Assembly: GCF_017084525.1 (NCBI RefSeq)
Contig: NZ_CP070950.1
Location: 2,976,001 to 3,040,000, forward strand
Source of the DNA: Conexibacter sp. SYSU D00693
Lineage (GTDB): Bacteria > Actinomycetota > Thermoleophilia > Solirubrobacterales > Solirubrobacteraceae
Direction: 5' to 3'
Length of the DNA stretch: 64,000 bases
How positions within the stretch are numbered: the stretch's first letter is position 1; every line of letters starts with the position of its first letter. The position numbers and the translations under genes are program-made. Below the pieces are notes generated by a model. The model was not told the DNA's origin and searched no databases. It was given only the letters and a program-made list of their open reading frames with translations. Below, piece after piece: positions 1 through 42,481 of the stretch.

Positions 1-270
1 GCAGACCACGGCGTCCAGGGCGGTGGCCAGGAAGCGGGCGGCCAGCTCCGGGGTCCCGCCGGTGGCCGCCAGCGCGAGCTGGGCGGTGAGGCGGCGGGCC
101 AGGTAGCGGGACTGGGGGTCGTCGAGGCGGCCGGCGGCGTGGAGGGAGGCCGCGAAGGCCCGGACGTCTCCCGCGCGCAGCGTCGCGTGTGCGCGCACGA
201 GGTGGGCGTCGACCGTGGCGCGCGCGCCCGCGAACGGGGACGTCGAGCCGGGTGACGCCTGGAGGGTCAT
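1..270 (-). CDS. Unknown protein, N-terminal 90 residues, cut by left edge
   Basis: An open minus-strand frame begins at an ATG (complement of 268-270) and stays open for 90 codons to the window edge. The visible part is rich in Ala, Leu and Arg and looks all-helical, with no signal peptide or membrane segment; I do not recognise the family. The start is supported by a sigma-28-type promoter (278-304) whose -10 element ends 7 bases before the ATG. That placement makes membership of the flagellar regulon likely (inference). It is divergent from fliA. Confidence 0.6.
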   Translation of the reverse strand, partial: MTLQASPGSTSPFAGARATVDAHLVRAHATLRAGDVRAFAASLHAAGRLDDPQSRYLARRLTAQLALAATGGTPELAARFLATALDAVVC

Positions 271-27675: not shown

Positions 27676-27703
27676 GAAGGGCGCCCCGGTCGGGGCGCCC
27701 TTC
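27676..27703. terminator. Bidirectional terminator hairpin
   Basis: GAAGGGCGCCCC, loop GGTC, GGGGCGCCCTTC: a 12-bp perfect stem 5 bases after the LLM stop. It can also end transcription coming from the gyrA side. Confidence 0.7.
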
Positions 27704-27779
27704 GAACGACATCACTGGATGTGAACCTCGGCGCGACGGTCTAGCGGCCGGCAGGACCAAGTCCGGCATCACGCTGAGG

Positions 27780-27837
27780 GGTGGCCCGGTGTGGATTCGC
27801 TAGGCGGATCCAGCGACCGATCTAGCGACCGGCCACC
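27780..27837 (-). terminator. Structured hairpin overlapping the small-ORF stop
   Basis: GGTGGCC pairs with GGCCACC across 58 bases, and an inner TCGCTAG pairs with CTAGCGA. The stop codon of the candidate 15-residue ORF (27822-27824) lies in the inner arm. It may be a terminator or an RNA structure; it lacks a U-tract. Confidence 0.4.
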
Positions 27838-27869
27838 TCCAGGGTCCTACAAGGACTGTCACTGCTGAT
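27822..27869 (-). CDS. Candidate 15-residue ORF with extreme Shine-Dalgarno
   Basis: On the minus strand AGAAAGGAGGTGGTCC (complement of 27872-27887) matches 15 of 16 bases of the complement of the usual 16S rRNA 3' tail. GGAGG is followed after 8 bases by an in-frame ATC that opens a 15-codon frame reading (M/I)SSDSPCRTLEVAGR and ending in TAG. An in-frame GTG lies inside the ribosome site itself. An extended -10 (TGCTAGATT, 27899-27907) is correctly placed upstream. I do not recognise the peptide. It could be a leader peptide, a microprotein or a ribosome-binding RNA. Confidence 0.35.
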   Translation of the reverse strand: MSSDSPCRTLEVAGR

Positions 27870-27898
27870 ACGGACCACCTCCTTTCTCTGGTGAGCCC

Positions 27899-27907
27899 AA
27901 TCTAGCA
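27899..27907 (-). promoter_or_regulatory. Extended -10 promoter TGCTAGATT for the small ORF
   Basis: On the minus strand TGCTAGATT lies about 11 bases upstream of the AGAAAGGAGG site. It would give a leader of roughly 20-25 bases before the small ORF. No clear -35 is seen. Confidence 0.45.
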
Positions 27908-27961: not shown

Positions 27962-30586
<2,625 letters not shown>

Positions 30587-42402: not shown

Positions 42403-42476
<74 letters not shown>

Positions 42477-42481
42477 CTGTG

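Follow-up and report, generated by a model that had tools for sequence, protein, structure and literature searches.

What is a 16-nt stretch that mirrors almost the entire 3' tail of the 16S rRNA doing in the intergenic region behind gyrA of Conexibacter sp. SYSU D00693? The stretch, AGAAAGGAGGTGGTCC (here SD1), lies 74 nt 3' of the gyrA stop codon and on the same strand. The original prediction, made from the letters of the window (the whole stretch of DNA that was analysed, 64,000 nt long), counted a match to 15 of the 16 bases of the anti-16S sequence, and this count is borne out, with the 16th position forming a G-U pair: the host 16S 3' tail is complementary to AGAAAGGAGGTGATCC, so that SD1 and the tail form 15 Watson-Crick pairs and one G-U pair that together cover the entire tail. 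The predicted pairing energy is -27.8 kcal/mol, compared with -10.8 for the site before gyrA and -10.0 for that before gyrB, and the SD1 stretch ranks first among 4115 SD-containing 20-nt stretches sampled across the window. Exact matches to AGAAAGGAGGTGNTCC in the 4.43-Mb genome are confined to the SD1 site and the 16S gene; allowing 2 mismatches adds two more sites, and at up to 2 mismatches a reversed control pattern yields 3 sites. When as many as 3 mismatches are tolerated, the 64-kb window contains 1 site versus 0.29 expected. The motif is found with at most 1 mismatch in 38 of 41 genomes (the host's own and 40 relatives), with the GTGGTCC form in 36 of the 41, and a scan of public genomes recovered at least 120 stretches, in records whose titles include Actinomycetota, Acidobacteria, Rhodobacterales-type organisms, Zixibacteria, and others.

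SD1 opens an RNA gene of approximately 200 nt that would be transcribed from its own promoter (Table 1). The extended -10 element proposed in the original prediction is there, and 107 of 177 relatives, a pooled set selected for its architecture (stop codon 14, 15, or 17 nt past GAGGT), have a TANNNT sequence that starts 25 or 26 nt ahead of the GGTG in SD1, but a strict sigma-70 consensus scan of the SD1 locus scored no promoter. The place of the inferred transcription start is occupied by A in 84% of the same 177 relatives, and the inferred 5' end of the RNA lies about 6 nt ahead of the first base of SD1. The GC-rich hairpin on the other side is the likely end of the RNA in this model; its T tract is weak, and the strict scan gave it no score. 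The core by itself folds modestly better than its shuffled versions (z = -1.87), and with the end hairpin included the z score is -3.20.

Table 1. Positions of the RNA gene, its parts, and its upstream neighbor in the window
Feature	Coordinates	Strand	Basis or remark
gyrA, upstream neighbor	27962..30586	-	Pfam gyrase A domains; synteny with relatives; context only
Extended -10 TGCTAGATT, the RNA's own promoter	27899..27907	-	Sequence; TANNNT in relatives
Inferred transcription start, A of ACCAG	27892	-	Distance from -10; first position of RF02471 match
SD1 AGAAAGGAGGTGGTCC	27872..27887	-	Pairs with full 16S 3' tail
Short frame ATC...TAG, ISSDSPCRTLEVAGR, 15 sense codons	27822..27869	-	Start, frame, and stop conserved in relatives
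GGACC, possible partner of SD1-end GGTCC (27876-27872)	27843..27847	-	RNAalifold, 37 relatives
SD2 GGAGGTGG, anti-16S site inside the frame	27833..27840	-	8 nt (from GGAGG) before last sense codon
Hairpin over stop, CCGGTC-GCTA-GATCGG	27817..27832	-	Predicted by folding
Stop codon TAG	27822..27824	-	TAG 129, TGA 36, TAA 12 of 177 selected relatives
GCGAATCCA, then locking strand CCGGGCCACC (27789-27780)	27780..27800	-	Pairs with SD2 and its flank; covariation across lineages
3' hairpin CCGG...TTGGTCC...CCGG with conserved GTCC	27748..27766	-	Alignment of relatives
GC-rich hairpin GAAGGGCGCC...GGCGCCCTTC, likely RNA end	27676..27703	-	Fold and alignment

Behind SD1 lies the 15-codon frame with an ATC start that the original prediction had described, and within this frame there is a second anti-16S site, SD2, that was absent from that account. 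Conservation of the frame in related genomes, proposed at the time as a check, was assessed in two sets of loci. Of 148 motif hits, 138 remained once 10 16S genes were removed; discarding redundancy reduced them to 132 loci, and GAGGTG occurs 15 to 95 nt further on in 113 of these, which leaves outside the set the 10 16S hits, 6 duplicates, and 19 loci without GAGGTG. A stop codon is found exactly three codons past GAGGTG in 107 of the 113 loci (at another distance in 6), and 109 loci have no stop within the frame, compared with 50 and 18 for the other two frames. The second set was obtained with R1, a model of the 5' part of the RNA that uses sequence only and was built from 57 loci, including the one in the window. 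Among 67 non-redundant loci outside the first set, 65 have all three features: SD1 is followed by a start-like codon, the frame is open, and a stop lies 12 to 18 nt past GAGGT (at 15 nt in 54 loci, 14 in 9, and 17 in 2), a combination seen in 6% (maximum, 12%) of the shuffled versions of the 67 loci. The stop position in this test partly depends on the search, because R1 includes the SD2 and stop columns; the start and the openness of the frame are independent of it. The two failing loci (L230 and L231) do so through an earlier GAGGT and pass with the next one, and L223 and L244, which have no SD1 plus SD2, stand outside the 67-locus set.

The start-like codon nearest SD1 in the 177 selected loci is ATG in 48 cases, TTG in 46, GTG in 25, CTG in 24, ATC in 14, ATA in 12, and ATT in 8, and the frame is 10 to 22 codons long. 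Four loci (L146, L149, L216, and L217) have their stop 17 nt past GAGGT, farther than the others, and possible ATA starts. In the variable part of the frame, AGT makes up 158 of 883 codons in frame 0 versus 2 of 710 and 0 of 706 in the other frames. This bias is present in each of four groups set by record titles and kinship, and AGT is missing from the variable part of 70 of the 177 frames; in the host gyrA and gyrB taken together, AGT is 1 of 79 Ser codons. Because the frame is kept open and in register and AGT is almost confined to frame 0, it appears to be read as codons. Translation of the short frame is thus strongly supported by comparison, and it is almost certain that the locus is a conserved RNA gene with a frame that is read. 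The AGT bias also suggests selection on codons or on serine, which the ribosome-holding model described below leaves unexplained. We also observed that the AGT excess is concentrated near the start of the family frames (L186 to L239 and L002 to L153) and that the frame offset by +2 in these loci is rich in TAG and TGA.

The original prediction could not put a name to this element. A search of Rfam provides one: the segment 27892-27720 matches RF02471 (Ms_IGR-5) with an E value of 3.3e-7 and a score of 37.8 bits, over positions 1 to 184 of the 184-position model, ends included, with some non-standard pairs marked. This is a full-length covariance match, yet its score falls below the gathering score of the family, 45 bits, which is why the window RNA is a divergent relative of Ms_IGR-5 rather than a curated member. 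At an E value of ≤0.01, RF02471 is detected in 13 of 21 genomes (the host's own and 20 relatives), in none of the 21 above the cut-off, and in none of 14 control genomes. When loci of 18 relatives were compared with Rfam at the curated cut-off, 4 passed for RF02471 (L042, L049, L053, and L102). The window is linked to accepted Ms_IGR-5 through R1, as 12 of 17 tested loci found with this model (L186 to L188, L190 to L195, and L201 to L203) score 80 to 176 bits for RF02471 at an E value of ≤0.001. These 12 share the 5' end, SD1, the short frame, and the SD2-to-stop spacing, and they belong to Ms_IGR-5 itself because they exceed the 45-bit cut-off with the same frame and SD2. In the same test, L212 scores 35.0 bits, and L199, L209, L218, and L225 have no RF02471 match at E ≤ 0.001. 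Among 10 further loci compared at an E value of ≤0.01, L015 scores 41.4 bits for RF02471, L066, L098, L130, L148, and L078 match the Caulobacter sRNA CC2171 with scores under the cut-off of that family, and neither family is matched by L007, L034, L065, and L117. From these mixed locus-by-locus results, the curated Rfam families catch only parts of a wider group.

In the phylum of the host, R1 has matches in 157 of 396 genomes (E ≤ 0.01), mostly one per genome; the weakest of them include some partial matches, and at least one (L223) looks like a false positive. In the phylum of L117, an Acidobacteria record, there are matches in 16 of 149 genomes (E ≤ 1e-4, centre included). At the same threshold, R1 finds none in 299 genomes from the phylum of an alphaproteobacterial locus and none in 149 genomes from the phylum of L140, zeros that are no evidence of absence because neither group holds a known positive.

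The actinobacterial Ms_IGR-5 is listed by Rfam as an sRNA, and the passages retrieved from the literature treat it accordingly. Its copy in Streptomyces lividans appears there as a transcript validated by RNA-seq (PMC8079986), that in S. avermitilis as an sRNA transcription unit (PMC8780764), and a transcript overlapping IGR-5 is mentioned as well (PMC10454040). Ribosome-protected reads are reported for MS_IGR-5 homologs in Mycobacterium abscessus and M. smegmatis, in a paper whose retrieved text also cautions that RNPs and many noncoding RNAs show footprints in Ribo-seq (PMC4974804). CC2171 appears in tables in the portions retrieved from two papers (PMC11701678 and PMC5596092). One literature match was set aside, as the retrieved text consists of assay oligonucleotides (PMC6943124). 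Among the literature matches listed, whose scope excludes preprints and most subscription papers, there is no description of the frame, SD2, or function of Ms_IGR-5, and the retrieved passages likewise lack the SD2-locking strand.

SD2 has a predicted pairing energy with the 16S tail of -17.7 kcal/mol, and its position is nearly fixed. The last G of its GGAGG is located 8 nt before the last sense codon in 162 of the 177 relatives, 7 nt in 11, and 10 nt in 4, in a set selected for these distances; the loci taken without that selection give the spacing in 107 of 113 and 54 of 65 cases. The distance from SD1 to the nearest start-like codon, for its part, has a mode of 8 nt (61 of 177 loci) and a spread of 5 to 17. 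With the stop codon in the A site, the 16S tail would therefore come to lie opposite SD2 in the register of initiation. We consider it slightly more probable than its opposite that SD2 acts on the ribosome at the stop codon; that the ribosome is held there is what the geometry suggests.

SD2 may itself be locked by a strand further downstream. Its flank and this strand change together across lineages: ATGAG is accompanied by CTCAT, for example, and GCCGAG by CTCGG. The 3' strand was located by a GAATCC-like motif, chosen without regard to the SD2 flank from a motif list drawn up after the sequences had been seen, and 45 of the 175 long-enough loci, which have no recognisable anchored 3' strand, were left out. 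In the remaining loci, the predicted duplex of the 3' strand with its own SD2 flank has an energy of -15.2 kcal/mol versus -10.1 with foreign flanks, and its own flank is the stronger partner in 116 of 130 cases, or in 41 of 49 when distinct flanks are counted once (p = 7e-9). An earlier anchored version of the test favored the own flank in 96 of 119 loci. Little signal was obtained without the anchor (-19.3 for own versus -18.9 for foreign flanks, own better in 87 of 160) or with a loose one (own better in 96 of 159). SD2 is the better partner of the locking strand in 103 of 130 loci; in the window, the duplexes of this strand with SD1 (-17.5) and SD2 (-17.7) are of nearly equal energy, and the predicted fold pairs the strand with SD1. 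The helix between the SD2 flank and the CACC strand, backed by this covariation, is missing from the Rfam alignment, in which the CACC strand is unpaired.

Two other candidate structures were considered. GGAC is found just ahead of SD2 in 127 of the 177 relatives and could be a partner of the end of SD1; single-sequence folds of the window do not form this GGACC/GGTCC pairing, and covariation cannot test it because SD1 hardly varies. The original prediction also included a hairpin covering the stop codon. Such a hairpin is indeed predicted here, but it is not generally conserved: its own arm beats foreign ones in 120 of 177 loci but in only 46 of 89 when distinct tails are counted once (p = 0.78), and it was rejected as a key element.

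The explanation that we favor, with a probability of roughly 55%, is that the locus encodes an Ms_IGR-5-like RNA that is loaded with a ribosome, is translated, and holds the ribosome as it terminates; the holding and its purpose are the conjectural parts of this proposal. SD1 would load a ribosome very efficiently, offsetting weak or non-standard start codons. The loaded ribosome would open the SD2 lock and read the frame, and at the stop codon it would meet SD2 in the same 16S-tail register as at initiation; given this register, we infer that it may be held at the stop or that its 30S subunit may be kept after recycling. The RNA would thereby switch between two forms, folded and ribosome-loaded, and could act as a sensor of ribosome occupancy or as a ribosome sink, with the tiny peptide being a by-product. 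Among the options offered in the original prediction, it is the RNA that traps ribosomal subunits that best fits both the geometry of SD2 and the ribosome-protected reads of the Ms_IGR-5 homologs (PMC4974804).

The same RNA could be a dual-function regulator: its 3' part would bind target mRNAs, and translating the short frame would serve only to control the exposure of that part or to protect the RNA from decay and Rho. We regard this reading as unlikely. In its favor, the 3' half contains conserved GCGAATCC and GTCC stretches in relatives of the window RNA, and a ribosome sitting on SD2 would be expected to free the SD2-locking strand. However, regulation of this kind would not by itself explain the near-constant distance between SD2 and the last sense codon.

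The genomic surroundings bear on an alternative that we find improbable, a leader-peptide attenuator that senses the charging of serine tRNA, or some other state of translation, and regulates transcription into a downstream gene. This scheme could draw on the excess of in-frame AGT, a serine codon so rare in the host gyrase genes, and on the alternative pairings among SD1, GGACC, and the 3' strands. It requires a regulated gene directly 3' on the same strand; in the window, however, the next gene downstream of the RNA is convergent and preceded by the GC-rich hairpin, and the nearest downstream open reading frame (≥150 aa, by a rough count) in 118 relatives runs in the same direction in 51, in the opposite one in 65, and is lacking in 2. 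The 70 frames without AGT also speak against it, and the over-strong leader peptide of the original prediction, for which no fixed downstream gene was found, is improbable as well. A gyrA match is present in 35 of 153 loci, and both gyrA and an HNH gene (Pfam) are present in 31; in these 31, the HNH gene lies beyond the RNA and points toward it, and the window has between the two a luciferase-like monooxygenase gene (Pfam) that is absent from the other loci of the 153-locus set. In six loci of other lineages, the neighbors differ, and the linkage to gyrA was dropped as a clue to function. As for tRNA genes, one is found close downstream of a family member (L212, positions 2-74, minus strand), and the window contains a tRNA-Ile (gat) gene at 42403-42477 on the plus strand; the 3' end of the 16S gene lies elsewhere, near genome position 896379.

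Still less probable is a microprotein gene with a product that matters. An open frame is maintained across phyla, and its first half is rich in serine (277 of 883 codons). However, both the sequence and the length of the peptide vary: ISSDSPCRTLEVAGR in the window compares with MYGYRTEEVTAG, MSSDQRVTVEVMSR, MSTGSRYSTREVADC, and LHSTSGGGSS elsewhere. The distance from the second motif to the stop differs in 15 of the 177 relatives, 11 of which have the motif in another frame; SD2 is read in these 11 as GGA GGT, not GAG GTG, with the distance to the stop kept within 1 nt, and 9 of the 11 are among the 65 passing loci. The residues that are shared, E-V and its flank, fall on SD2 and on the stretch that covaries as RNA. 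Judged by these comparisons, what is conserved is the frame as a frame and not the sequence of the peptide, so that the conserved microprotein once suggested for this locus, with peptides that differ between lineages and SD2 read in two frames, loses its appeal. That the locus is a 16S gene remnant in decay or matches by chance, as one might suppose from the 16 bases of the plus strand that read like the 16S 3' end, is very unlikely, because the architecture of start, open frame, and stop is kept in both the 113- and the 67-locus sets; moreover, position 13 of the motif is G rather than A in 36 of the 41 genomes, and identity as a 16S fragment was rejected, since the 10 true 16S gene matches run on into 16S sequence and the SD1 locus does not.

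The ribosome-holding RNA has partial parallels among known systems. In the prfB and dnaX frameshift sites, an internal SD acts on the ribosome that has moved downstream of it, where the strained spacing between the SD and the P site shifts the frame; in contrast, SD2 of the window RNA stands at the modal initiation spacing and ahead of a stop. The hibernation factors HPF and RMF are proteins that act on idle ribosomes, and the window RNA would resemble them in lowering the pool of free ribosomes. The dual-function sRNA rnTrpL, an RNA of the trp attenuator described in the retrieved passage as leaderless with a translated frame of 14 codons (PMC10117765), is likewise a small RNA with a translated frame; the window RNA differs from it in its extreme SD1 and in having no fixed structural gene after it. 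The Bartonella anti-SD sRNA, as described in the retrieved text, is of opposite polarity to the window RNA (PMC7717549).

With the anatomy described here, an Rfam family that has no function in the retrieved literature passages becomes testable, and CC2171 shares a part of that anatomy. An RNA filed as noncoding turns out to have a frame that is open across phyla, in which the peptide is not the conserved thing, and SD2 would represent an SD placed for action at termination rather than at initiation. If the holding model is true, the RNA would be a device that responds to the supply of free ribosomes or controls it. A search for anti-SD complementarity immediately ahead of stop codons would also seem worthwhile.

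The comparison with CC2171 (RF01867) extends these considerations to a second family. The window RNA matches it with 28.5 bits and an E value of 2.7e-4, below the gathering score of 75. In 142 alphaproteobacterial-type genomes, RF01867 has matches in 26 at an E value of ≤0.001, 5 of them above the cut-off, and Caulobacter vibrioides is the only one of 14 control genomes to match. Like the window RNA, CC2171 has a super-SD close to its 5' end, followed immediately by a short frame that encodes diverse peptides: an ATG, GTG, or TTG start (the only ones sought) followed by 18 to 35 codons is found in 25 of 28 loci, and 23 of these 25 have serine as the second codon. Unlike the window RNA, it seldom has an SD-like core 13 to 17 nt ahead of the stop (3 of the 25 loci), and R1 finds none in the 299 genomes of its phylum. 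CC2171 and Ms_IGR-5 are thus alike at the 5' end, which may reflect either homology or convergence. A more far-reaching proposal, which we offer tentatively and think rather doubtful, is that Ms_IGR-5, its Acidobacteria relatives, and perhaps CC2171 form one ancient class of RNAs whose working part would be a ribosome held by SD2 at the stop codon, an RNA-based ribosome gauge or sink with an expendable translated peptide and a covarying SD2 lock. In some of the CC2171 sRNAs (L245 to L271), the last part of the frame contains CAACCTCC-like stretches, which, judged by eye, might base-pair with the SD.
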